A stretch of 46,851 nt of DNA. Origin: a virus. Positions 9,157 to 44,473 of this stretch are shown here, piece by piece. How positions within the stretch are numbered: the first letter of the stretch is position 1; each line of letters begins with the position of its first letter. The DNA is taken from positions 1 through 46,851 of IMG/VR virus record IMGVR_UViG_3300018080_004698; one strand, given 5' to 3'. A program made the translations under genes and the position numbers. Under the pieces are notes generated by a model that worked only from the letters and a program-made list of their open reading frames with translations, was not told where the DNA came from and did not search any database.

Positions 9157-12100
9157 TATACCTCCATATCATCTTGTGTCCCATCTGCGTATTCTATCTC
9201 GCAACTAATGGATTCTGTCTGACGAACAATATCACACATTTCGTCTGGTCGGTTCTTTGCGGCATTCAATATATGAACATTTAATGCCATCGGTGTCGCT
9301 GTCTCCGTTTCTACCTCGATTATCGCCTTGCCCCGACGATCTACGAAATCAAAATCATGTCCTGGGACATATGGCTCGGATCGCTCTGGAATGCTCAATG
9401 GCTGATTTACGAATCTGTAAATATCGTAGGTAACCGAAGTCCCAGCCACCTTCCAATCATTGTGAGGACCACCCAGGGTAATGATTTTGCCATCGATTTC
9501 TTCAATAGCATAGTAATCCGTACCAATTAGAATTAGGTAGTTTTCCTTGAATTTGCTGCTCTCTGATGCGTCCAAGCTGCCATCCGGTAGATGAGCAGCA
9601 TTGACTCCATTTGTAATCGGAAGCCCCGTCTCATGATCCACAAGGGTCTCTAGTCGGAGACCTTTATAGCCAAATTGCCCTATCGCGTTTTCGATCAAAC
9701 GACGATAAACACTCACTGTGACTCCAGCTACGTCGCCACTTGTGTACTCGCTAATGTAGCATTGATGTGCGTCCGATTCGTGAAAACCGATGATTTTATA
9801 CTGTGTCCCACTGTAGAGAAGGTAATCGCCAATTTTAATGTAATTTCTAATATCTTCTATCGGTACAGCAACACTTCCAGGTCTAAAGTCCACCCTTCCG
9901 CGACGACGTACAGAAAGGGCACCACCCGTGCCAGAGGCACGGGTGGTGCCTCCATCATCCTTTATAATCCAGGTTAGACCGCTTGTGTCGGATGTGGGTA
10001 GACTTCCATCATCTTCTATCAGGAGAATTCCATCTGGAAGCACATTTATCACTTCGTAAGTGCTGTAACCGCTGGACGTTATGGTTAGTTCCCAAGGATT
10101 TCCTGTATATTCTGTATACTCCTTATCCCATTGGCTTTTTACCCCTAGTTCTGCGAAATCTACGGCGGAATCGTTAAAAGTAAATACATCATCTTGGCTG
10201 ATATTCACAGGATCTTCTTCAAGTATTTTGTTAGATAGTCTGAATGTAAATTGGCTCTCGTCTACTGGTTCCGTGTAGGCTGGATTGGATGCGGCAATTA
10301 CAGCCGAATAGTCCTCTGGATCTTTTACCGAATAATCCCCTGCCAGGACGTGTGGGGCAAAAATCTCAAGCCAGTTCGAATTATCCAAGGGAGTCCCACT
10401 GACACTTTCTGTGTTGATCGGTAATTCATCGAATTTCTCAAAGCCGCCTTGAGCATCATCTCCTCTGGTAGTAGATCCTGGCGAATAGATTGCAACATAA
10501 TCGTTGTATGCTGTCCCACTGGCCGATGTCACCTTACTCTCCATATCCGCCAGCATTGTTCTTTTAAGTATCGCCAGGGTTGTTTCGTTGGGGACTACTC
10601 GATTGAAGATGTATTGCCCTTCTCCTGCCAATACAATTTCTTCTCCACGCATATGAATCAGCACGTTAATTTCTTCAACAGGAGGCTTTACAAATTCATT
10701 GATTGCTCCTGTAAAATTGATCGAATGGAGAATAGCTTGGAAAGGAACAAAATCCCGCAGAGTATTCTGGGCCTCTACGATCCTGTCGTCTGCCAATCCC
10801 TCGACCTCGATATCGACACTGTAATTGCTTCCCAAGCAGTTCGTGCAAGGATCAATAAAAGCCTTATCAATATGGCACGGATTCGTGGATTCCCTCGTAC
10901 TGCCATTGTATTCTTCCATATTATAGACATTTTCCGAATAGGGGAATTCTGTTCGGATCATGCCGAATATAAGAAGGTCATGTAGAGGATGCCTGATGGG
11001 AATGACCAAATCAAACATCGGGTCGTCTTCTTCAATTACCCTGACGTTCCAGTTCTTGGGCGGATAGCACTGATCTCTTTCATCTCTTAGATCTGCTAAT
11101 GGCAAACTACGGATATAATCTTCAATGGCTTGTTCTGTGCTTCCTGGAACCTCGACTATTTTGTAGATTATCCTGATCGAATCTCCTGTTTCCAAAATGA
11201 TGGGCTCTACGGAAAGTTGATCCCCAATCCAGGTGAATGAATCGTTGGTATCATCAAAATCGATATAGTCCGATGTTAATTCTGTCCAATTTTCATCATC
11301 GACGCCTCGCCAATACAGTTCAAAGTTGTCGAGATCTAGTGGAAGGGCATTCTTGCATAGGGTAAATTCTATTTGGTCTTCCGCCACATCGAAATAATCC
11401 TGCCATGTGTAAGGGGAAATAACCTGCCAAAGTCGCGTGAATTTCTGGAGCGACATACCCGCTGCTCCCAAGGCATCACTCAAACCTTGATAGGTGCCCT
11501 TTTTCTTGTAGGTGGGTATTGCCTGCTTGATCTGTCGCCGCCAAAGTGTCGGGTCGGCGGTTTTAAGCTGCAAATCAAACAGATTGCCCATAGCGGGGAG
11601 AAAGTTTTCCCTTGTGACGTTGGCATCGACCATATCGACAATCTGGTTTGCCAAATCTTCCAGGAAAGTGAAACCCGCCGCCACAGAATTATTAAGTTCT
11701 TGAAGAACCTCGGGGCTAAGATCGGATGAGGCGAGTCTTCTCTTAAAAGTTTCCGGCAGATATCTTTCCATCAAAGTTTCGTACTTCTCTGGATCTGTGA
11801 AGTGCGTGGGAATTGACGTTGTGAGTCTCGAATCACCCAGCAAAAAGAACGGCAAATGGGCTGTTATCGTATCGCTAGCTACGTAAGGAGTCCAGGTCCA
11901 ACAGATGAAATAGTCGCCCTCTTGCATTCCCAAAGGCTCCCAGATTAGGTTGAATTTCCCGTCTATGGGATCTCCATCATCGTCGAGTTCCTGTGTGAGA
12001 ATGTTGTCTTCTTTTACCTTTTCTCTTTCATCTGGTGGTACGCTGTCTGGATTGAGCCATGCAGGAAAGTCTTCTGTTTCTCCCGTCGAGTCTTGGAATC

Positions 12101-18942: not shown

Positions 18943-21900
18943 TTACATTCCATCATTTATGAGGTTTCTATTTGGTGTACCGCTGGGCTTTCCATACTTC
19001 CAAACTCCATATTGTGGGGATTGTACCGGTAAAGTTTTGTTTCTGGTGCTTAAAGTAGGAGCAGTAGCAGCGGCCCCGATCACAGAGGTGCTGGGCTTCA
19101 TAAGATCGACCAATTCAAAGATTCCATCTATTACTTGAGATAATTGCCCAACTTGTGTGTTGGTAGCATCTTCTATTCCTGCTAACTCATCAGCCTTTAG
19201 TGTCGGAGTTCCTGCTTCGACACTGGCCTTCTCCCGCATCATTGTTTCTCTAATTCCGCCCGGAGGTATTGGTTGGGCTGGCTGAACACCTCCCGCTGGT
19301 TCGATATTCACTCTTTCTGCCCCTGACTCCCCTACAAATAGCAGTTCAGGACCAGAAGTGATGAATGATCCTCCTGCGGCCATAGCTCTTGGGCCTTTAA
19401 CCTTTATGCCCCCTGCTCGGTATCCACCTTCGTATTTCATGGTAGATATTTTTAGTTGTTCTTCCTTAGATTTCAAAGCAAATTTTGTGTTTTCGCGTAC
19501 CAATTCAGCGTTTATTTCATCTATCTGTTGTCGTTTGCTTTTCTCCTTTACGACAGCTTTCTCAAGTCCAACTGTTTGTTCCGACAGTTGCCTTTCTTTT
19601 TCAAGTTTTCTGAGATATTCCTGTCTGTTTTTTTTGTGAGCCCGCATAGCCCCAACGATATTTTTGTAACTCTCGGGAGCATGTTTTCGCTGTAGCTCCA
19701 GCAAACTCAATCCGCTCTCTTCCACACCCCTGCCAGTCATTCTTGCCGCCTGTTGTGGCGTGGCCCCCCTAGCAAGAGCTTGCCCCTGTGCTTCCCATCG
19801 TTCAAACTGGTCCGCGCTTTTAATCTGAGTTTCCGTAGCTTTCTTAACAGATTCATCTACGCTCTTATTGACTTGTTGTGATTCCGAAATAGCTTTTCTT
19901 AATTGTTCCTCATTCATTCCCATTCTGGCGAGTTGCCGACGACCGGCCTCGCGATTTTCTATGTGGGCGGATTCCAAATTTACAAGCGTTCTTTCTAGGG
20001 CGGCTATAGTGGGAACAATCTCGCCTTCTACGGTTTTTTTCCACATCATTTGCTCGCCTGGAGAACGAGCTTTTGCTGCCAATTCTTGTTCGTATACTGT
20101 TTTTAGTTCGGCTTGAGTAAGCCTTGCGGTTGTAGGAGCGGCTCCCGGAATTCTAGCTCCGCCTCTGCCACCTGGGCCGCCTCTGCCACCTGGGCCGCCT
20201 CTTTCGAGTTCTCTTGTTTTACTATCAAAGAATGGCAAAGCACCACCAATTACTCCAAAGATGGTCGATATGGCCTTTTCAACAAAACTCTTAGACTCGC
20301 GACCCTTGTATTGAGCTTTTTTCTTGCTGTCTTTGGATGTTTTGTTTGTTTCTTCACTAAATTTGTTTATACCCTCGTCATACACACTTGTCAGTATTTT
20401 CTTTTGTACAACTTCTCCTTCGGCCTTATTGGTCTGAATATCTCGCACAGTTTTTTGTGCTTCTCTCCCAAAGAACATCTTCTTTGTAAGAAGACCGATT
20501 GGACCGAACAAACCAAATGTTAGAGCATCTTGTAGAAAGCCTCCCATTCCTCCTTTGCCGCCGCCTCCGCCACCTTGTAGATTACGGAGAGTTTTTCTTC
20601 GCAATTCTCGTTTGGCCGCTGCGTCCGCACCGCCTCCTAGTTCAACTTTGGCAAGGTCCCCGGCCATTGCCAAACGACCGCCTTCTCTGGCTTTTCCTGG
20701 TTCGAACGCTCCCAGTTGAAGAGCCGATACTTCACCTAAAGCCGCATTTATCTTTTCACCGGCCCCCTCGATATTTTCTAGCTCACTTCCTTTGAGCTTA
20801 TTCATTACCGCACCCAATGCATCAAGTACGTCTGCAATGCTTCCCATTATTGTTGTTAGATGGTCTAGTTTGGCAATTGCTGCTTCTAGTTGCTCCGTGT
20901 CAGGGAAATATTCATTGATCGGGTCAATAATTCCTATCTTTAGAGCCCACGCTATGCCCTCGAAATAACTGGCAAATTGGAGCGTCAGTGAAGATAGCTC
21001 TTCCATGATTGAAGATGAGAACCATCCACCACCACCCGCCAATTCTTGCATACGTTCGGATAGATTTTGGAGAAATGGCATTAGTTTTTGGATCACTGAC
21101 GACATGTTGGCTACCTTACTTCCCGCACTCTTTACCTCTTCTTCATCTGGGAACCATACCCCAACTGGTCTGATAATCCCCATGTAAAGAAAGCGACCCA
21201 ATTCCCAGAATATTTCCTCAAATTCCGGCATCATTTCGCTGAGTTTGCTACCAATAGATTCACCTGTCCATAAACTTTTCTTCGTCCATTCAAGAACAAC
21301 CTCAGTCATGAAGTCCATAATCGGCTTGAGGTTAGACAAGATTCTTGCCATGCCTTGAATTTTAGGAACTGTTTCGCTTACCTCGTCTTCGGATGGGAAG
21401 TATCCCTTTAGAGGTGCTATTATCCCGAATTTGAGGAAATACCCCATCTCCGAGAATAGTCCTTGAAACATTGGCATTGCTTTTTTAAGTTGAGCGGCAG
21501 GAGATGCAGAAAACCACCCTGGAGTCACAAGTGGCAGAATCGATTCGACAAAAACATCTGTCGTTTCCGCTAGTGCCCTAGCTATTTGACTTAAGTCCGT
21601 CAGAGAACTTTCAATTTGCTTTGCCTCTTCTGGATCAGCTATTCCCGCCAGTTTTCTGCCTATATCGATCACAGCTTCCATGAACATAACAATTGGAGGG
21701 GTAAGCATTCGCAATACAGAGACCCCTAACATCATGGCAATAGCCATTACTCCCGCCGTAAAAGCGAAAGCTCCCAATGCGGCGATAATTGGAGCGTAAA
21801 AGAGTACGGCTTTTGTTAATTTCCATGTTATGTCAAAGATAGCGGTTAATCCTTTATTGACTTCTTCGGCCTCTTCAAGACTGATTAGTGCCGTAAATTC

Positions 21901-26378: not shown

Positions 26379-27683
26379 CTAGCAGGTTCTCATTATTAGG
26401 TCGTGTGCTGAATAAACACAACGCTTGAGAGTTTTTAGGTCACTCGGATTTCCTTGATAAGGCGTCTCTTTGAACCGCATTCCCTGCATTGCATTTGCTG
26501 CTTCTTGAATGGTTTGCAAACCAGCAGTTAAGAATAGACTTCCATCTCGACGTTGAATGAATTCGATTTCTTCTGTCGCTGGATTTCCGTCTTCGTCTTG
26601 CTCTCCGGTTTCCTTAACGAAATAGATGTTCAAGTCAATAAACGGAAGGATATTGCCATCGTCATCGATCATGGCCTCCGAGTTGTCAGACTTTCGAGTT
26701 CTGACGACGACCTTTCCTTCTGAATATGCCGCTCGGAGAGAATTGGCTAAATCCCACCCGAGGCTATAGATTGTACCATCGTCTCCAACGACATTGATGA
26801 TAAACGCACGCGTTTCAAACTCCTTGGCGACGGACTCAATAACGAGCCTATGTCGCAGAACCTCTTTTTCTTCTGGGCTTCCTTCTTCTAGCCGTTTGAG
26901 TTCCGGCTCCGATAGATACCGCTCGGGATCATCTTCCCGCAGGCTCCAAGTTCCCAATATAAGATTACCCCAGTCGGCATTGAGCCTTGTTGCCATTTTA
27001 ATCGAATATTCATTCTCATTGAAAATAACATTCTCTTGATCTGGACTGCTGCTTACCTGAACAGAACCAGTAAGGGCCGCGATGTACTTTCTGTGAAGTT
27101 CGCCCTTATAGCTTCCATATCCCAAGATTTGGATAAACTTCGTATTGAGCATCGTCATTGTTTCGAGAACAGTTGTAATATGGTCGCAAACAGTGGTAGC
27201 TGGATTATTTCGGTCAAGTTGATCCTTGATGCCCTTACGGATTTCCTGTGATGCTTTTTCTATGTTGGAATTCTGTCTCAAGAGTTGAATGTTCCAGTTA
27301 TCCTCAACAAATTTTCTTTGGTAGGGCGGCAAGGTTTCCTGCTCACGCATGGGAGACAATACATCCAGAAGTGCGTTCGGATCTCCCTTGATAGATTCCT
27401 TGAAGTATTTTTTCTTCCAGATTTCGAAGTCGTCTTCTTGAGGCTGTTCTTCGGGCATTTCAGGGGCTTCTGGATCTTGAGTAACATCCGCAGGTTGTTC
27501 TTCCGCTCCCATTTCTGGCGGCATTCCTTGAGGCACATTCGCGATGTTTGGATCTGGCGGCATGGGTGCCATCGTAGGATCGGTTTGCGGAGTCATTCCG
27601 AAGGGATCTGGTTGCCCACCAGCCGCAGGGATATCTTGTTCATTCAACGTTCTCATCCAATCTTCAATGACATAATTTTTCAT
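26379..27683 (-). CDS. Structural-type protein with Pro-rich N-terminus, unknown
   Basis: This 434-residue protein begins 'MKNYVIEDWMRTLNE', then has a disordered Pro/Met/Gln/Asp-rich stretch (about 18-85) and a folded alpha/beta region. The first 15 residues could be a capsid-targeting-type tag, with 'LNE' as a possible protease site. The ATG overlaps the upstream stop (ATGA), with GAGG upstream. It lies just before the tail genes in transcription order. I do not recognise the family; a virion or virion-assembly protein is likely. Confidence 0.65.
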   Translation of the reverse strand: MKNYVIEDWMRTLNEQDIPAAGGQPDPFGMTPQTDPTMAPMPPDPNIANVPQGMPPEMGAEEQPADVTQDPEAPEMPEEQPQEDDFEIWKKKYFKESIKGDPNALLDVLSPMREQETLPPYQRKFVEDNWNIQLLRQNSNIEKASQEIRKGIKDQLDRNNPATTVCDHITTVLETMTMLNTKFIQILGYGSYKGELHRKYIAALTGSVQVSSSPDQENVIFNENEYSIKMATRLNADWGNLILGTWSLREDDPERYLSEPELKRLEEGSPEEKEVLRHRLVIESVAKEFETRAFIINVVGDDGTIYSLGWDLANSLRAAYSEGKVVVRTRKSDNSEAMIDDDGNILPFIDLNIYFVKETGEQDEDGNPATEEIEFIQRRDGSLFLTAGLQTIQEAANAMQGMRFKETPYQGNPSDLKTLKRCVYSAHDLIMRTC

Positions 27684-28150: not shown

Positions 28151-28160
28151 GATATGATAT

Positions 28161-28240
28161 ATAGAATAGTGAGGACTAATTATCAGGCAACTATTCTATC
28201 TAGGACCACAAAAACAAATGCCAATCGTACATAGAATAGT
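28161..28240. promoter_or_regulatory. Three alternating ATAGAATAGT elements in divergent promoter region
   Basis: The 10-mer ATAGAATAGT occurs at 28161-28170, inverted at 28190-28199, and direct again at 28231-28240, all within the 102-bp gap between divergent genes 28150(-) and 28253(+). The last copy contains TAGAAT placed like a -10 before the 28253 gene. Alternating exact copies suggest operator half-sites or paired phage promoters. Confidence 0.5.
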
Positions 28241-28252
28241 GACAGGAGACAA

Positions 28253-28969
28253 ATGAAAACATTCAAGAAGTGGCTTGTCCTAAGAGAGGCCCAAACTGGT
28301 GGTACTAAAAGACCGAAAGCCACGGGCGGAGGCTTTGTAGCCAATAGGAGTCAATTTTGGGGTCCTGCCGCCCACTTCGGACACGATGCCGAGAAGGTGC
28401 AATCTATTTGGAACAAAGCGATTGCAGCCGGTCCAGCAGCGGTGGGATCACTTTTTGCCGATGAATTAGGCTATAGCCCAGAGGCCATACCCAAGCTGGA
28501 AAAGTGGCCTACGGACACAATGACACGAACCCATGTATTTAAAGATGGAACGCTTCCGCTACAAGTTTTGATTAAGTATGAGGGCGAGTGTATGAATTGC
28601 GGAGAAGATCTGGACTGTTTGTGGAAAAACTGTCAAATGGATGAGCAAGAAATGAAAAATGGAATAGATGATCCCAATTACATGGACAAACAAATTGTCC
28701 CCAAAATGAAAGAAAAACCTTCAATATATCCCAATCCACAAGATTACCATATGGTGGAAATGGCCAAGAAATTTACCGAAGCACTAATTATGAGGGATCT
28801 GTGGTGGCGTTTGGTAAATGATCCAGAGGGCGGGAATCAAACAGAATATGTGGATTTCAAGAATCCCAAGATTGAAAGGCGTATCGAGGGGGCTAGTCCA
28901 TACAGGACCTTGACGATAGCCGCTATGTTTCCACGAACAGACATAAAAGGGGCACAGGAATACGAATAA
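28253..28969 (+). CDS. Tagged protein of unknown function
   Basis: This 238-residue protein starts 'MKTFKKWLVLREA', a close match to T4-type capsid-targeting peptides (predicted cleavage after LRE). The next 20 residues are Gly/Lys-rich. The body has a Cys cluster 'CMNCGEDLDCLWKNC' (about 112-126) that could bind metal, and a C-terminal beta segment. AGGAG lies five bases before the ATG. The following nucleotidyltransferase gene starts 11 bp downstream and also carries the tag, so the two are probably coexpressed and copackaged. I do not recognise the body. Confidence 0.75.
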   Translation: MKTFKKWLVLREAQTGGTKRPKATGGGFVANRSQFWGPAAHFGHDAEKVQSIWNKAIAAGPAAVGSLFADELGYSPEAIPKLEKWPTDTMTRTHVFKDGTLPLQVLIKYEGECMNCGEDLDCLWKNCQMDEQEMKNGIDDPNYMDKQIVPKMKEKPSIYPNPQDYHMVEMAKKFTEALIMRDLWWRLVNDPEGGNQTEYVDFKNPKIERRIEGASPYRTLTIAAMFPRTDIKGAQEYE

Positions 28970-28980
28970 TAGGAGAATAA

Positions 28981-30570
28981 ATGAAATCATTCAAAGACTA
29001 CCTTGTTCTCAAAGAAGCAGAGGAAAAGGCGGAAGGCAAGAAGGACTGGAGAAAAGAGTTTATTACACTTGAGAAGGGATTCAATCCCAAGCTCCACGCA
29101 GCCAATCTTGCCCCGATCATCCAGGCTTTTCAGGACAGCCCAAAAATTTCTCTGACAAAAGACACAACGAAAGATGTTACGATGCCCAAGAAGTCTCTAT
29201 TCTTGGTAGGTGGTGCTGTTCGCGATTTCCTCAAAGGTAAGACCCCTAAAGATTTTGATTTGGCTACCAATGCCACCCCTGCTCAAATCGCACGCATTCT
29301 TCACGAAGCCGACTTCAAAGCACCAACGAAAGGCGAGAGCAACAAGCTCGACTACGACCGAAGTGGAAAGGGTGGCGAATTTGAACTGGGATTCAAGCCA
29401 GAACCGGCCAAACCAGGAGACAAAAAACTCTGGATGCTTACGGGCCGCGATTCCAGCAAAAGCAGAAAGCCATTTGTTATCACAGCAGTCGTGGATGGAC
29501 AAGAATTTGAAATTGCCACATTCCGCAGAGATGCAAAGGTGAGCGAAGGTCAAGCCATCGTAGATTTTGTCGATAATCCTGCCGAAGATGCGGCGAGACG
29601 GGATCTCACCATCAACGCAATGTACATCGAATTAACCAACCCAGAGGGCGAAAATAAGAAACTATTTGATCCAACGAAGAAGGGCTGGCATGACATTACA
29701 CACGGAATAGTACAAACAGTCGGAAAAGCCCGAGATAGATTCGAGGAAGACAATATTAGAACAATGAGAGCCATTCGATTCCATTGCCGTTTTGGTAGCG
29801 GCTGGAAGATGCACGAAGATATCGAAGATGCAATTCCAGAATTTAGACAGCTAGAAGGAGTTGCCCTAGAGCGAGTACGAGATGAATTTCTCAAAGGCCT
29901 AATTCATCCAGACATCGACCCAAGATGTTACTTATCGATCTATAAGCGTACAGGACTTATGAACAAAGTCTTCCCGAATGTAAACGTGAACCTCCAAGTT
30001 CCCGCTAAACTTCGGGACAAGAAAGACAAGATCCTGTCTCTGGCCTGGATACTGCAAGATAATCCGGTCACAAAAGTAGAAGAGGTGCTATCTACCAAGA
30101 GGGGAGAGACCCCAACGGGTTGGCCGACTAAAGAACGTGATGCTGTCATTTATCTCTTGAACTTGAAGTATTTCGATCCCGACATGCTTCCCACATACCT
30201 CAAGAAAAAGAAGACTGCTGGCCTGTCTCCCAAGCAGATCCGAGATTGGGTAGATCTTTTTTCCGTTACGAAAGAAGGGAAGGTCAAGAGCCTTCACGGT
30301 CCCAAATGGGCACGGTCTATACGGAAACTATCCGAATTTGAACCCGATCCCAAAGAACTAATCCAGTGGCAAGAGAAGATACCTTGCGATAGATGCCAAG
30401 GAGAGGGCTGCGAACATTGTGACTATCGAGGTTCCCATAAAGGCGGCGTCCATCCAGAAATCATTGCGAGAGGTTTGCAAGGAGTATTCCCTAAGCAAAG
30501 ATCCTCCGTTGTTGATTTGCTGAATAAAGAAAGATTACGCAAGAAGTTCGAAGAACTTCCCGATGTGTAA
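28981..30570 (+). CDS. tRNA nucleotidyltransferase/poly(A) polymerase family, tagged
   Basis: This 529-residue class II nucleotidyltransferase-type protein has 'LVGGAVRDFLKG' (about 75-85) and 'DFDLATNATP' (about 91-100), the GG-x-RD and DxD catalytic motifs. A further Asp-rich 'RRDLTINAMYIE' (about 204-215) and the 'IRTMRAIRFHCRFG' neck follow. Such enzymes add or repair the 3' CCA of tRNA, or add poly(A); specificity is not readable here. It is longer than usual and has a C-terminal 'CDRCQGEGCEHCDYRG' zinc-knuckle-like motif (about 469-484). The N-terminus 'MKSFKDYLVLKEA' is a capsid-targeting-like tag ending in LKE. AGGAG precedes the ATG. Confidence 0.9.
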   Translation: MKSFKDYLVLKEAEEKAEGKKDWRKEFITLEKGFNPKLHAANLAPIIQAFQDSPKISLTKDTTKDVTMPKKSLFLVGGAVRDFLKGKTPKDFDLATNATPAQIARILHEADFKAPTKGESNKLDYDRSGKGGEFELGFKPEPAKPGDKKLWMLTGRDSSKSRKPFVITAVVDGQEFEIATFRRDAKVSEGQAIVDFVDNPAEDAARRDLTINAMYIELTNPEGENKKLFDPTKKGWHDITHGIVQTVGKARDRFEEDNIRTMRAIRFHCRFGSGWKMHEDIEDAIPEFRQLEGVALERVRDEFLKGLIHPDIDPRCYLSIYKRTGLMNKVFPNVNVNLQVPAKLRDKKDKILSLAWILQDNPVTKVEEVLSTKRGETPTGWPTKERDAVIYLLNLKYFDPDMLPTYLKKKKTAGLSPKQIRDWVDLFSVTKEGKVKSLHGPKWARSIRKLSEFEPDPKELIQWQEKIPCDRCQGEGCEHCDYRGSHKGGVHPEIIARGLQGVFPKQRSSVVDLLNKERLRKKFEELPDV

Positions 30571-33784: not shown

Positions 33785-34642
33785 ATGGACTTTAGAGCCT
33801 TCTTAGAACAAGAGCAACAAGAATTGATGCCAATTGGGAAGCTGCCCACCATTCTCGGAACAGGGGAATCTGAAAAACTCAGTTTTGGCTCTGCTCCGCA
33901 TTTCAAAAAACCGTTTCTTTACGTCCCTCTTGGCGAACGTGGCACAACGGCCCAAGCCCTAAAAGCAATACGTCGTAAAGCTGAAAAACAAAACAGGGCT
34001 CTTGTTTGTGTTCCTCATCCGAAAAAGAAGTTTCATTGTCATCCGATATTTCCCAAAAAACTAGGCCCCACAGGGGAGATTCTGGAAGATCCATATGAAG
34101 ATATCGGAAAAGAAAATAGAGCAAAATTTGCCAGTGTAGGGGAAATGCACCTTACTGTTGCCTATGGTGATGAATTGGAGGAGGCAAAATCTCAATTGAT
34201 CGCCAAATACGGATTGCCACCAGAATCGAGCATGAAAAATGTACTTGCGAATGTAAAATTCCCCGATGATCCAGAATACGGGATTTACAAAGACCATCCT
34301 CTTTTCACTTATCCAGAAGAAGGAGGGGTGGGAGTTCGATGTCCTGTTTACTATGAAGATCCTGATGTCAAGCCTCAATTTGTGGTAGCAAATACCTATA
34401 CGATTCCAAGAGTAGGAAATTTGCCGCCAATTGCTATGATCGTCCCCGTTCAGTCTAACATGGTCCTCCGAATTCGAGATCTCTTGGGGCTTGAAAAGCC
34501 ACGTTATCGATTACACGTCACGTTGGGATATGTTATTCCGACTCAAAAAGAAAGCTCGCCCAAACGACTTACGACGCTTGGGCGACAAAAAGGCGAACCG
34601 ACCGCAGTAGGACAGCTTCATCCTGGACGCCTCCAGAATTAG
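33785..34642 (+). CDS. 2H phosphoesterase superfamily protein, tagged
   Basis: This 285-residue protein has the two HxT motifs that define 2H phosphoesterases: 'HLTVAYGD' (about 122-129) and 'HVTLGYV' (about 245-251). The family (LigT, CPDases, phage Acb1) hydrolyses 2',3'-cyclic or other cyclic phosphodiester bonds in RNA ends or second messengers. The N-terminus 'MDFRAFLEQEQQE' is a capsid-targeting-like tag. There is no Shine-Dalgarno; a TCTAAATA box sits 4 nt upstream. The gene meets the convergent RNA ligase gene tail to tail with a 4-bp overlap. It is longer than LigT-type enzymes because of N-terminal and inter-motif insertions. Role in RNA repair or anti-CBASS defence is inferred. Confidence 0.8.
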   Translation: MDFRAFLEQEQQELMPIGKLPTILGTGESEKLSFGSAPHFKKPFLYVPLGERGTTAQALKAIRRKAEKQNRALVCVPHPKKKFHCHPIFPKKLGPTGEILEDPYEDIGKENRAKFASVGEMHLTVAYGDELEEAKSQLIAKYGLPPESSMKNVLANVKFPDDPEYGIYKDHPLFTYPEEGGVGVRCPVYYEDPDVKPQFVVANTYTIPRVGNLPPIAMIVPVQSNMVLRIRDLLGLEKPRYRLHVTLGYVIPTQKESSPKRLTTLGRQKGEPTAVGQLHPGRLQN

Positions 34643-35301
34643 TCTTCCGCTAATTTGTTTGGTTCAACCGGCTTGCTCATCCAGAATTGATCTGTTTTTA
34701 CGTGTCCTTTTCTCACAAATTTAGCGACATGATCTTTGAAAGCCTCAAAGGGAAATCCTTCGTAGGTTCGGACAACATAACCCTCTTGCTCGCCACCCAT
34801 CTTAGATTCGCCAGTGAAAAGATCGCGAATAGCGTCTTCATCCCACTCCCCGACATAAAGCTCAGGAACCGTCTTGAGATTCAACAACTGGCACCATTCC
34901 TTTGTAGATCCCCAATCTAGGCAAAAGTTCTTCTCATTCCAAATCGAGAAGACCAGAAAGTAGCTTGGCAGAGCCTCGTATTTGATGGAATGAACTGCAT
35001 AGATGTTCTCTCCACAAATCCGCCACCCCTCGGGAATGTCGTTCTTGATGGTTCCATGCATCATCTTTACCCAAGAACGAGAGGGGTGATGCCCGCTATC
35101 TAGAGAACGAGCATGAATGTCGTCTCGGTACATCGTGCAATTCTCGCCGTCCATCTTCTCAGTTACGACGACCTTCTTTCCTGAGAATTGCGCAATGTCC
35201 TGTAGAACTCTATCGTCGTCCGTAATCTCCCTGCTCCACGGGAGATGAAACGTCCGAGGGTATTTTTGAAGTTCGGCTTCCATGAATTGCCTAAAATTCA
35301 T
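34639..35301 (-). CDS. RNA ligase (Rnl2-like nucleotidyltransferase), tagged
   Basis: This 220-residue protein has all core ligase motifs in order: I 'EKMDGEN' (AMP-acceptor Lys, about 47-53), III/IIIa 'SYFLVFSIW' (about 118-126), IV 'EGYVVRT' (about 171-177) and V 'VAKFVRKGH' (about 190-198). There is no separate OB domain, which fits an RNA ligase rather than a DNA ligase. ATG 35301 is chosen because it overlaps the stop of a small upstream membrane gene (ATGA); an upstream start at 35334 has no ribosome site. The N-terminus 'MNFRQFMEAEL' is a capsid-targeting-like tag. Such enzymes seal nicked tRNA or mRNA, for example after host anticodon nucleases act. Confidence 0.85.
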   Translation of the reverse strand: MNFRQFMEAELQKYPRTFHLPWSREITDDDRVLQDIAQFSGKKVVVTEKMDGENCTMYRDDIHARSLDSGHHPSRSWVKMMHGTIKNDIPEGWRICGENIYAVHSIKYEALPSYFLVFSIWNEKNFCLDWGSTKEWCQLLNLKTVPELYVGEWDEDAIRDLFTGESKMGGEQEGYVVRTYEGFPFEAFKDHVAKFVRKGHVKTDQFWMSKPVEPNKLAED

Positions 35302-35444
35302 TTCTTTATGAGTCCTGTCTTGAACCCAATCCATAGGAAAAAGCCAAATACAATAGATAAAGTCGCTAAGGGAAGAGCTATTATCGATGCAACAATGTTT
35401 ATGACGAAACTCTTGTCTCGGTACTTATCTCGCTCGACGGTCAT
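35298..35444 (-). CDS. Small single-pass membrane protein
   Basis: This 48-residue frame starts with a basic/charged N-terminus ('MTVERDKYRDK'), then has one long hydrophobic helix ('FVINIVASIIALPLATLSIV', about 13-32, continuing to about 41) and a basic end. GAGGAG lies four bases before the ATG, and its stop overlaps the ligase start (ATGA). It sits one base after the stop of the basic 71-residue gene, so the three form an operon. Function unknown. Confidence 0.65.
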   Translation of the reverse strand: MTVERDKYRDKSFVINIVASIIALPLATLSIVFGFFLWIGFKTGLIKK

Positions 35445-35661: not shown

Positions 35662-35792
35662 GATAAGCACCACCAAAATAAATCCATGTCTCCTTTGTTA
35701 GACTACAATATCTACACATCGTATGAATTTTTCACCATCATCAGAGTGCTTTGCCGATAGTCTGCATAGATATTTTTGGAGAAGAAAGTACG

Positions 35793-36218
35793 ATGGAAAG
35801 TCATGAACTTCAAGATATTATCGATACACAAAAGAAAATTCTAAAGGAACTTTCCAACCTCAAATATGGTAGCAGAAAAGCCACTTATGGAGAAAAACTC
35901 TCTGACACAATCGTGACTTTCATAGGAAGTTGGAAATTCCTGATGATGCAGTCATTTATTCTTATGGCCTGGATTTTTATCAACCTTTTTAGCTTTGCAT
36001 TCGACCAGTATCCGTTTATTCTTTTGAATCTGGTACTTTCGTTCCAGGCTGCATTTGCTACTCCACTTATTTTGATGGCCGCCAACCGATCCGAGAAAAA
36101 AGATCGCCGTCGTGCAAATGACGCTTATAGAGCCATCGATCACATTGAAAAAATGATGGAACGCATGGTTCAACCATGTCAGAAATTATACGATGAAGTC
36201 AATGGAAACAAAAAATGA
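35793..36218 (+). CDS. DUF1003-like membrane protein
   Basis: This 141-residue protein has an N-terminal coiled helix, then 'FIGSWKFLMMQSFILMAWIF' and 'PFILLNLVLSFQAAFATPLI', two membrane segments in a hairpin, then 'AANRSEKKDRRRANDAY', a characteristic DUF1003 tail. ATG 35793 has GGAGAAG upstream; a longer frame starting with TTG at 35751 is unlikely. The family occurs in bacteria and phages, function unknown. Confidence 0.75.
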   Translation: MESHELQDIIDTQKKILKELSNLKYGSRKATYGEKLSDTIVTFIGSWKFLMMQSFILMAWIFINLFSFAFDQYPFILLNLVLSFQAAFATPLILMAANRSEKKDRRRANDAYRAIDHIEKMMERMVQPCQKLYDEVNGNKK

Positions 36219-36366
36219 AAATGAACCGCAGGCTAATGCCCTAGTTCAGAAAATTGAAAAAACCGAAGAAATGGGAAAGGAAATTCTCGTTATGATGATG
36301 TCTTCCCAAACAACTCAGATCGGGTTTTTCGAAAAATTAAGCCGAGGGAGGAAAGCCTCGGCTTAA
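36202..36366 (+). CDS. Possible small protein overlapping a terminator
   Basis: This 54-codon frame starts 17 bp before the DUF1003 stop and ends exactly at the end of the hairpin at 36337-36366, so its last residues ('KLSRGRKASA') are encoded by the hairpin. Composition (Glu/Lys/Met-rich helix) is plausible for a real protein, but there is no good ribosome binding site. Confidence 0.4.
   Translation: METKNENEPQANALVQKIEKTEEMGKEILVMMMSSQTTQIGFFEKLSRGRKASA
36332..36366 (-). terminator. 11-bp hairpin with T-run on minus strand
   Basis: Arms TTAAGCCGAGG / CCTCGGCTTAA (36337-36347, 36356-36366) are perfectly complementary. Read on the minus strand they are followed by TTTTT (36332-36336 region). 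This would end a leftward transcript from the promoter at 36553-36580. On the plus strand it could also act after the DUF1003 gene, though with no T-run. Confidence 0.6.
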
Positions 36367-36546
36367 TCTGGAGACACAGGTCAGTTATTTCAGGCTCGTT
36401 CGCTTTCGACCTGTAAAATGACTACCAGCCCCTTCGGCTGGACCCGACGATACCTGCGCGGGTTAGTAAGGAGCCCTCTTTGCCGGAAAGACAAAGAGGG
36501 CTGTTTTCCACTCTCGTTGAAGAAGCGACCGTGAGAGTGACTGTCC
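36332..36546 (-). ncRNA. Candidate structured RNA A1 (promoter-to-terminator cassette)
   Basis: A near-consensus minus-strand promoter (TTGACA, 16 bp, TACAAT at 36553-36580) would start RNA near 36546, and the hairpin/T-run at 36332-36366 would end it, giving about 215 nt. Between them lie perfect stems of 7 bp (36509-36515/36533-36539), 11 bp (36472-36482/36492-36502), 6 bp (36425-36430/36436-36441) and 7 bp (36376-36382/36408-36414). No coding frame with a ribosome site is seen. Expression is inferred. Confidence 0.4.
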
Positions 36547-36551
36547 AATGT

Positions 36552-36566
36552 AATTGTAGTACAATT
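36552..36566. promoter_or_regulatory. Perfect palindrome over the A1 promoter -10
   Basis: AATTGTA-G-TACAATT is a 7-bp-arm palindrome that contains the -10 hexamer (TACAAT, minus) of the A1 promoter. It is a natural operator candidate, and because it reads the same on both strands it could also serve a rightward -10. Confidence 0.5.
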
Positions 36567-36580
36567 CGCAATATTGTCAA
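36553..36580 (-). promoter_or_regulatory. Sigma-70-type promoter A1
   Basis: On the minus strand, TTGACA (36580-36575), a 16-bp spacer, and TACAAT (36558-36553). Full -35 consensus and 5 of 6 at -10. Points left into hairpin-rich noncoding DNA. Confidence 0.6.
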
Positions 36581-36583
36581 GTA

Positions 36584-36623
36584 GAAATAAAAGGTTCCGC
36601 CAACCTCCTTCTTGGCGGAACCT
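36584..36623 (-). terminator. 12-bp hairpin with TTTTATTT on minus strand
   Basis: Perfect arms of 12 bp (36592-36603, 36612-36623, core GGTTCCGCCAA) with an 8-nt loop. On the minus strand they are followed by TTTTATTT. It lies just before promoter A1, separating cassettes A2 and A1. Confidence 0.65.
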
Positions 36624-36763
36624 ACCGACAAAGGAGAAGTGCCGGGAAAGGGGTCGAGCCTGTTCCCGGCCACCCTTCGCAATGGTTATCTGGGCACCCC
36701 CGCGAAGGAATTTCGGTTTTCGCTCCAAGCGAAAACCAGCCCGCTGGAAAGCGGGCCTGCTTC
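36584..36763 (-). ncRNA. Candidate structured RNA A2 (promoter-to-terminator cassette)
   Basis: Promoter TTGACA-17-TATATT (36770-36798, minus) and terminator 36584-36623 bound a region of about 180 nt. It contains stems of 7 bp (36739-36745/36750-36756), 10 bp with 3-nt loop (36715-36724/36728-36737), 7 bp (36674-36680/36702-36708) and 8 bp (36641-36648/36663-36670). The unpaired part contains CTTCTCCTTT, complementary to AAGGAG ribosome sites. No coding frame with a ribosome site. Expression is inferred. Confidence 0.4.
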
Positions 36764-36769
36764 ATGGGA

Positions 36770-36798
36770 AATATACCCCTGACTCAAAACTTTGTCAA
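36770..36798 (-). promoter_or_regulatory. Sigma-70-type promoter A2
   Basis: Minus strand: TTGACA (36798-36793), 17-bp spacer, TATATT (36775-36770). It is divergent from the plus-strand promoter of the 36860 gene 27 bp away. Confidence 0.6.
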
Positions 36799-42882: not shown

Positions 42883-43317
42883 TTAAGCAGGCATCGGTTC
42901 TGGAAGGCCCAACATCTCTTTTATTCTCGGATGCTCCTGTATTTCTTCTACGGAGATATGAGGTGTTGTATATTGAGCAACCACTATTGTGCGTCCTTCA
43001 TCGCGAAGAATAAAAGCCATCTTAGTGTTCTCTCCGATTTCACGTTCCATATCGTCATGAGAAAGAATGCTACGAGGCCAAATATAGAGATCATCAGCCG
43101 TCGTTATTATCCCACCAAGTTGCAAATTACTTGAAAATTCCTTGCACCAAGTCGTCAATTTAGCAAGCTCTTGTTTTGTAGGGTTTTTGTAAATAGGATA
43201 GGTGACATTTCTCTCAATCCAAGGATCAGCGGCATAACTTCGTGGATTTCTAACCAAAGTTTGCCCTGACATGGTTTTAAATAACTCTTCACCTATAAGC
43301 CAATTTCGAAAGTCCAT
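42883..43317 (-). CDS. Tagged protein of unknown function
   Basis: This 144-residue protein begins 'MDFRNWLIGEEL', a capsid-targeting-like tag with 'IGE' as a possible prohead-protease site. The body is alpha/beta with 'DDLYIWPRSILSHDDMERE' and 'IVVAQYTTPHISVEEI'. It has no Shine-Dalgarno, but GCTAAATA lies exactly 4 nt before the ATG, in the 17-bp gap after the tail-tube-like gene. Family not recognised; predicted virion-internal protein. Confidence 0.65.
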   Translation of the reverse strand: MDFRNWLIGEELFKTMSGQTLVRNPRSYAADPWIERNVTYPIYKNPTKQELAKLTTWCKEFSSNLQLGGIITTADDLYIWPRSILSHDDMEREIGENTKMAFILRDEGRTIVVAQYTTPHISVEEIQEHPRIKEMLGLPEPMPA

Positions 43318-43334: not shown

Positions 43335-43784
43335 CTAATCGGGTTTCGGCCAAGGAACAAATTCTGCCCTCGAATATCTAATGGTCATTTCTGTATTGTG
43401 CGGGCATGGATCGGTCCCTAAAAGACTTGAGTCCACCTTCGTCCGAGCCGTCCTGGCAGCGTGTACGATCCAAGTTTCCAAAAGCCCGCCACATCCATCG
43501 TACAGAAGCAATTCGACCGTATCTAATTCCCTCACGGCATTCTGCCACTTCTCTAGAACTTCATCGGTGGCACCATAGTGGTTAATAGTGATCTCCTCCC
43601 ATGATGCCTTTCCAGGTATCCATGTCTTAGACGAGAGAAAATTGATTTCTTCGTCATTAAGTTGAGGTCGGGCGGGCACTTTGGCAAATCCCTCAAATAA
43701 GACCTCATCGCCCCTCTTGAATCTCGCCATCCAGCGGAACCGCTTCTTGAAAACAGTGTCTTCGGGTCGCTTATCGTAATCCAT
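43335..43784 (-). CDS. Tail-tube-like protein (gp19 family pattern)
   Basis: This 149-residue protein has the gp19-type order: 'KKRFRWMARF' first strand, 'FAKVPARPQLNDEEI', 'PGKASWEEITINHYGA' (about 57-72), a helix, 'ELLLYDGCGGLLETWIVHAA' (about 91-110) and a final 'EMTIRYSRAEFVPW'. gp19 proteins form the inner tube of contractile tails. It is outside the main tail operon and has a Shine-Dalgarno (AAGGAG) locked in a long inverted repeat at 43786-43844. It may be the major tube protein or a minor paralogue. Confidence 0.6.
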   Translation of the reverse strand: MDYDKRPEDTVFKKRFRWMARFKRGDEVLFEGFAKVPARPQLNDEEINFLSSKTWIPGKASWEEITINHYGATDEVLEKWQNAVRELDTVELLLYDGCGGLLETWIVHAARTARTKVDSSLLGTDPCPHNTEMTIRYSRAEFVPWPKPD

Positions 43785-43858: not shown

Positions 43859-43887
43859 GCACCGTTTCGCCTGCGGCGAAACGGTGC
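43859..43887 (-). terminator. Perfect 13-bp hairpin with 3-nt loop, TTTCTT on minus strand
   Basis: Arms GCACCGTTTCGCC / GGCGAAACGGTGC with a 3-nt loop. On the minus strand followed by TTTCTTAA. It lies upstream of the switch hairpin and the tube-like gene, separating them from the iteron region. Confidence 0.6.
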
Positions 43888-43889
43888 CC

Positions 43890-43960
43890 ATCCAAACAAA
43901 TCCCAACAAATCCTAACAAATCCTAACAAATCCGGCCAAAATCCGGCCAAATCCGGCCAA
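43890..43960. repeat. Seven 10-bp iterons
   Basis: Seven head-to-tail copies of a 10-bp unit, plus-strand ATCCnnnCAA: four AC-type copies (AAA, CAA or TAA in the middle, 43890-43929), then three ATCCGGCCAA copies (43930-43960, one extra A at 43940). The 10-bp period places every copy on the same helix face. Candidate protein-binding array or replication-origin iterons. Confidence 0.75.
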
Positions 43961-43999
43961 GGTTTCACAAAGCATGTTCGCAGTTCGCGAACAGTGAAC

Positions 44000-44036
44000 A
44001 AAAAAGCACCCTTTCGCCCTACGGGCGAAAGGGTGC
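44000..44036 (-). terminator. Perfect 14-bp hairpin with T6 on minus strand
   Basis: Arms GCACCCTTTCGCCC / GGGCGAAAGGGTGC (44006-44019, 44023-44036), 3-nt loop, followed on the minus strand by TTTTTT. A strong intrinsic terminator for leftward RNA from the 44343-44370 promoter. Confidence 0.75.
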
Positions 44037-44336
44037 CTTATGGTATCCATCCCAACCCATCCTAAAAGGGTTCCGTCCCGACAATTCATCCTGAAAAGAT
44101 TCAAGAACACTCTAATGATAGCAAGCCCTCCCTCGGGTCACATTAAGAGGGAGGGGGCCAAAGATACGACTTTACCCCATCCTGCCCGTGCCAAGTGACA
44201 GAATGGGGCATCCCGAGGGATGAATATCACCTTCATCATTGCTTACACCTCCATGCGTGTGAACCACTCCTCCTTCCCGCGTGAGCGGGAAGGAGGACAG
44301 AAAGGAGAAGCAAAATGGCCTTCATTTGAAGGCAAC
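44000..44336 (-). ncRNA. Candidate structured RNA B2 (promoter-to-terminator cassette)
   Basis: The perfect-consensus promoter at 44343-44370 would start RNA near 44336, and the T6 hairpin at 44000-44036 would end it (about 335 nt). Stems in between: 7 bp (44318-44324/44327-44333), 13 bp (44268-44280/44285-44297), 6 bp (44209-44214/44217-44222), 6 bp (44175-44180/44203-44208) and 9 bp (44126-44134/44147-44155). A 33-codon frame at 44138-44239 with GGAGG eight bases before ATG might be translated. Contains CTTCTCCTTT, as in RNA A2. Confidence 0.4.
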
Positions 44337-44342
44337 AGCGAG

Positions 44343-44370
44343 ATTATACGGATCTGGGAGAGCTTGTCAA
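44343..44370 (-). promoter_or_regulatory. Perfect-consensus sigma-70 promoter B2
   Basis: Minus strand: TTGACA (44370-44365), 16-bp spacer, TATAAT (44348-44343). Both hexamers match consensus exactly. It follows immediately after the terminator of cassette B1. Confidence 0.75.
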
Positions 44371-44372
44371 GC

Positions 44373-44439
44373 GGAAAAAACAGGGCCGATTCGCCGTAGG
44401 CGAATCGGCCCCTTTTTGGCAGGAACCGCAGTCTTAGAC
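44373..44439 (-). ncRNA. Candidate short RNA B1
   Basis: Promoter TTGACA-16-GATAAT (44446-44473, minus) would start RNA near 44439. The perfect hairpin 44383-44411 followed by TGTTTTTT ends it, giving an RNA of about 65 nt made of a short single-stranded 5' part and the hairpin. Too short to code. Expression is inferred. Confidence 0.4.
44383..44417. terminator. Bidirectional perfect 13-bp hairpin
   Basis: Arms GGGCCGATTCGCC / GGCGAATCGGCCC (44383-44395, 44399-44411), 3-nt loop. T-runs follow on both strands (CCTTTTT on plus, TGTTTTTT on minus), so it can end transcripts from either side. Confidence 0.75.
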
Positions 44440-44445
44440 AAGAGC

Positions 44446-44473
44446 ATTATCACAGATTCTTGGGATTTGTCAA
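44446..44473 (-). promoter_or_regulatory. Sigma-70-type promoter B1
   Basis: Minus strand: TTGACA (44473-44468), 16-bp spacer, GATAAT (44451-44446). Back to back with the plus-strand promoter of the 44552 gene. Confidence 0.65.

Follow-up and report, generated by a model that had tools for sequence, protein, structure and literature searches.

Two predicted small-RNA transcription units with near-consensus promoters in an intergenic region of a huge-phage genome fragment

The window analyzed here is an entire IMG/VR record of 46,851 bp, a fragment of the genome of a huge tailed bacteriophage, with tail and baseplate genes in the left 30 kb of the window. The closest named record is LR756511.1, an uncultured phage of 595 kb with a baseplate protein identity of 46%, and approximately 555-582 kb of that record is collinear with window positions 1.8-30.6 kb. 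In addition, relatives of the 434-amino-acid protein at 26379-27683 are encoded by 17 IMG/VR loci. The segment from 31 to 46.9 kb, which holds the two regions described below as A and B, has almost no synteny with the relatives. Within this segment only the DUF1003 gene (35751-36218) and the gene at 43335-43784 have homologues in the fetched stretches, located elsewhere in LR756511 or in G013. Region B is intergenic, lying between two protein genes, and contains no large ORF. No tRNAs were found in the window.

Several other features were observed in the window. Three genes of RNA-repair type, which code for a tRNA nucleotidyltransferase, a 2H phosphoesterase (a weak match) and an RNA ligase, are clustered at 28981-30570, 33785-34642 and 34639-35334, adjoining the region A RNAs. 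Similar amphipathic N-termini (MKTFKKWLVLREA, MKSFKDYLVLKEA, MDFRAFLEQE, MNFRQFMEAE, MDFRNWLIGEE and MKTFHQWLEAM) occur in several unrelated proteins at 28253, 28981, 33785, 34639-35334, 42883-43317 and 45708, and these are perhaps a common targeting or processing signal, for example a capsid-targeting propeptide. The divergent intergenic region at 28151-28252 carries direct and inverted copies of the repeat AGAATAGTGA and is perhaps an operator. Also, a 15-bp perfect palindrome (GGCACCACCCGTGCC..) is located within a coding gene at 9918-9950, and the relative G002 has the same palindrome with a different loop at 19083-19115.

Region B contains two successive units on the minus strand, B1 and B2, each of which has a predicted sigma-70 promoter and an intrinsic terminator of its own (Table 1). 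The promoters match the consensus at 11/12 (P1) and 12/12 (P2) positions, and P2 is the sole 12/12 site across the scanned 11-kb stretch. The terminators are perfect hairpins of 13 bp and 14 bp, each with a T6 run. Both reading of the sequence and the hairpin scan place the B1 hairpin at 44411-44383, followed by G and T6, and this hairpin is bidirectional. The first-pass annotation had described this layout, with TTGACA-16-GATAAT ahead of a short RNA and TTGACA-16-TATAAT ahead of a longer RNA ended by a 14-bp hairpin and T6, and all of its sequence claims proved correct. Its reading of these elements as promoter, hairpin RNA and terminator is well supported by the sequence (promoters above chance, perfect terminators, folding z-scores and no large ORF), and the RNAs themselves are predictions. 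Overlapping palindromes, TGTTCACTGTTCGCGAACTGCGAACA, are found on the minus strand at 43972-43997, directly after the B2 terminator, and are perhaps a repressor site.

Table 1. Positions of the predicted features of regions A and B in the window.
Feature	Position	Strand	Description
Region A promoter 1	36770..36798	-	TTGACA-17-TATATT
Region A RNA A1 (predicted, structured)	36588..36763	-	Terminator 36592-36623; z -5.2; z -3.8 without terminator
Region A promoter 2	36553..36580	-	TTGACA-16-TACAAT
Region A RNA A2 (predicted, structured)	36330..36546	-	Terminator 36336-36367; z -4.9; z -3.3 without terminator
Promoter P1	44446..44473	-	TTGACA 44473-44468, 16-nt spacer, GATAAT 44451-44446; TG precedes the -10 element
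RNA B1 (predicted, ~65 nt)	44375..44439	-	Start ~44439; open 5' tail of ~27 nt, 13-bp perfect hairpin, T6
Promoter P2	44343..44370	-	TTGACA 44370-44365, 16-nt spacer, TATAAT 44348-44343
RNA B2 (predicted, ~337 nt)	44000..44336	-	Start ~44336; strongly structured
B2 5' structured domain	44234..44333	-	Short hairpin, then long stem with nested 12-13 bp hairpin
Micro-ORF1 (29 aa)	44236..44325	-	Hydrophobic signal-like N-terminus; no Shine-Dalgarno
Micro-ORF2 (33 aa)	44138..44239	-	Shine-Dalgarno GGAGG; start overlaps micro-ORF1 stop (ATGA)
B2 intrinsic terminator	44000..44039	-	14-bp perfect hairpin 44036-44006, then T6 (44005-44000)
Seven GGAT decamers	43893..43957	-	GGATTTGTTN type; minisatellite-like
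Third hairpin/terminator	43859..43887	-	Paralogous to B2 terminator; precedes gene 43784-43335

The third terminator, its decamer array and the overlapping micro-ORFs of B2 were absent from the first-pass annotation. The similarity score between the B2 terminator and the third terminator is 31, compared with 17 for the best of 300 shuffles, and this was the only paralogy found among the units of regions A and B. The array sits between these two terminators. A search with the decamer pattern returned one viral contig and stretches of cellular genomes from unrelated phyla (archaeal and bacterial), which contained no cassette and no window genes except for one weak NUDIX-domain match. Since the same decamer occurs in unrelated genomes without the cassette or the window genes, the array is best seen as a minisatellite.

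Region A contains two further units on the minus strand, A1 and A2. Both genes flanking region A run antisense to A1 and A2, with the end of a plus-strand gene ahead of them and no minus-strand gene directly behind, and thus A1 and A2 are not leaders of a gene. The string TTGTCAAG occurs exactly four times in the window, at 36574, 36792, 44364 and 44467. The first-pass annotation had given this count and had placed all four copies in regions A and B, and both the count and the places are right. The word count alone is near chance, as CTTGACAA has four copies against a shuffle mean of 2.2, and four or more were present in 19 of 100 shuffles, which is not significant. Significance is reached only together with a -10 element. 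The 8-mer together with a correctly spaced -10 element that matches at least five of six positions occurs four times in the window; 60 dinucleotide-shuffled versions of the window averaged 0.017. In the relatives this CTTGACAA combination was found at 6 sites in 1.07 Mb, and very few of the relatives' promoter sites precede a stretch poor in ORFs and then a terminator. Thus, the density of the promoter combination in the window is unusual even within its own lineage. A strict scan for the cassette in 2.3 Mb of fetched loci from the relatives yielded just two candidates, one at 17535 of L080 and one at 8777 of L118, and the first of these (G008:277536) has a z-score of only -2.0 without its terminator.

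Two further observations concern the relatives. The whole LR756511.1 record contains TTGTCAAG 33 times against 5 times for the reversed control, an excess that is possibly due to codon usage. The relative G005 (IMGVR_UViG_3300018080_000116; loci L068-L075) has 41 perfect hairpins in 142 kb, with stems of 10-15 bp and short loops, and several of them are preceded or followed by a recurring string, GTGTATAAGGGGGCG, which is perhaps a late promoter.

Folding of B2 (339 nt) gave a minimum free energy of -157.8 and a z-score of -7.5 against shuffled copies, and the z-score without the terminator was -4.6. The 105 nt at the 5' end (44232-44336) had a z-score of -6.1 when folded alone. The 3' domain alone (190 nt) had a z-score of -1.8, so its structure is not unusual. 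In a structure scan of the whole window, many of the lowest z-scores fell in regions A and B. The opposite strand folds nearly as well, and for this reason the strand assignment rests on the promoters and T-runs and not on the folding.

The first-pass annotation had also proposed that the four units are cassettes of one type. This holds for the promoters, which are alike and have CTTGACAA in all four cases, but A1, A2 and B2 share neither sequence nor structure. The local alignment scores among these three RNAs were within the range of shuffled sequences, and covariance models, each built from a single sequence (A1, A2 or the B2 5' domain), matched only that sequence and, on the opposite strand, its palindromes. 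Blastn searches of phage and plasmid sequences and of E. coli genomes returned no homologue of the RNAs, and 18 related viral records gave only short matches at chance level. Exact patterns for A1 and for the Shine-Dalgarno region of B2 identified no homologue in IMG/VR, and neither did searches there with the flanking genes. In 80 DUF1003 loci there was neither a second gene of the window nor a convincing match to region A or B. Rfam gave no match at gathering level in the window, where the weak matches were terminator-like only, and no model of GOLLD, ROOL or other Rfam phage RNAs matched. With respect to antisense targets in the start regions of the window genes, the best RNA duplexes were roughly equal in quality to those formed by shuffled RNA. 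The duplex of A1 with gene 45012 was slightly beyond 20 shuffles, which is not significant after multiple tests.

We lean towards the reading that a huge tailed phage carries two stand-alone small-RNA genes in region B, which the host polymerase transcribes. Host RNA polymerase would read B1 and B2, probably early in infection, since the promoters are of the host housekeeping (sigma-70) type. B1 would be a minimal RNA, little more than an open 5' tail of ~27 nt joined to a terminator hairpin that ends in a U-tail. B2 would be non-coding and structured and would act in trans, and its folded 5' domain and hairpins may bind an mRNA or a factor from the host or the phage. Another two unrelated RNAs would come from region A, whose promoters are of the same type. 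This leaning is backed by the enrichment of the promoter with its -10 element, the perfect T6 terminators directly after each unit, and the z-scores of B2, A1 and A2 with and without their terminators. The micro-ORF peptides without relatives, the orientation of region A and the precedent of PhiKZ and ICP1 point in the same direction. Our confidence is only a little above even. The points that weigh against the reading are the missing RNA homologues, the z-score of the B2 3' domain, the folding of the opposite strand, the 33-aa ORF with a Shine-Dalgarno sequence and the duplexes at shuffle level.

The main rival of a non-coding B2 is a B2 that serves as a short mRNA, translated into one or two micro-proteins. 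Micro-ORF1 would be read from near the 5' end, and the start of micro-ORF2, sequestered in the 5' stem, would become accessible when micro-ORF1 is translated (translational coupling). This reading is consistent with the position of GGAGG 7-8 nt ahead of the micro-ORF2 ATG, with the ATGA overlap that joins the stop of one ORF to the start of the next, and with the predicted fold, in which the 5' domain pairs both the Shine-Dalgarno sequence and the start of micro-ORF2. However, micro-ORF1 has no Shine-Dalgarno sequence, and its hydrophobic residues derive from a pyrimidine run on one side of a hairpin stem. Pfam and tblastn gave no relative for either peptide, one Shine-Dalgarno-like string is not rare in a G-rich RNA with several ATGs, and A1 and A2, which are of the same design, contain no good ORF. 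We hold the mRNA reading to be unlikely. Quite unlikely, in our judgement, is that region B acts in cis as a leader for two minus-strand genes, 43784-43335 and 43317-42883, in which case transcripts from P1 and P2 would meet tandem terminators and read-through (anti-termination) would control the genes downstream. Region B does lie upstream of gene 43784 and on its strand, with three successive terminators between, and no good sigma-70 promoter was seen between the last terminator and this gene. Region A does not have such an arrangement. It has the same promoter-RNA-terminator design but is aimed at the end of a plus-strand gene and leads no gene, and in LR756511 and G013 the homologues of gene 43784 directly follow coding sequence and lack such a leader.

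The GGA content of B2 raises the possibility of a sponge for a CsrA/RsmA-type protein, similar to CsrB/RsmZ. B2 has five (A/G)GGATG motifs where ~0.26 per 340 nt are expected on this strand, and the 13 GGAT in 340 nt, including the decamer array, make this the densest place in the window. However, most GGA triplets of B2 are predicted to be paired (of 13, approximately four are mostly free of pairing and a single one sits in a clear hairpin loop), Rfam at a relaxed threshold returned no Csr/Rsm family, and the decamer array is found in unrelated genomes too. A sponge was therefore rejected as the main reading, with GGA motifs mostly paired rather than exposed and no Rfam match, and is considered very improbable. 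The same low standing is given to the view that these features are an ordinary bidirectional intergenic terminator cluster with promoter-like words, from which no functional small RNA is made. Perfect hairpins are indeed scattered through the phage and even more so through the relative G005 (41 in 142 kb), and the B1 hairpin is bidirectional, but the enrichment of the promoters over shuffles and the structure of B2, A1 and A2 beyond their terminators both argue otherwise.

A wider form of the small-RNA reading is put forward only tentatively and is doubtful. Regions A and B may together be an island in which three or more structured RNAs (A1, A2 and B2), unrelated to one another and not described before, accompany one minimal hairpin RNA, all under host housekeeping promoters; it would provide regulatory RNA of the huge phage at the start of infection. 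To our knowledge, very little of the small-RNA repertoire of huge phages has been charted. The near-consensus promoters and the terminators allow exact predictions, with 5' ends near 44439 and 44336 and lengths of ~65 and ~337 nt. If the small-RNA reading is true, the RNAs would be new families absent from Rfam; if not, the locus is an ordinary intergenic terminator cluster.

Judged from sequence, B1 and B2 are a plausible addition to the familiar phage small RNAs, without known relatives, and not something wholly new. Small RNAs derived from phages have been reviewed (PMC12197685). As predicted, B1 and B2 resemble these in being short intergenic transcription units, here with their own sigma-70 promoter and intrinsic terminator, but have no sequence or Rfam relation to the described RNAs. 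In the jumbo phage PhiKZ, an abundant structured RNA of ~100 nt lies between PHIKZ298 and PHIKZ297 and has been interpreted as a product cleaved from a 3' UTR (PMC8545117). It resembles the predicted RNAs of region B in its small size, its structure, its jumbo-phage origin and the terminator hairpin at its end, but it has no start of its own, whereas each unit of region B has a near-consensus promoter. The most abundant transcript of ICP1 is a non-coding RNA of ~800 nt (PMC7567579). This RNA, GOLLD and ROOL (PMC7567579) share with B2, whose non-coding status is predicted, the location in an ORF-free phage gap, but they are much longer, and the window RNAs have no Rfam match and the window has no tRNAs. 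B2 is similar to CsrB in size and to CsrB/RsmZ in its strong terminator and cluster of GGATG motifs, but differs in that its GGA motifs are mostly in stems and no covariance model matches. PhiKZ and ICP1 indicate that phage small RNAs can be abundant yet unexplained, and B1 and B2 may be further members of this kind.
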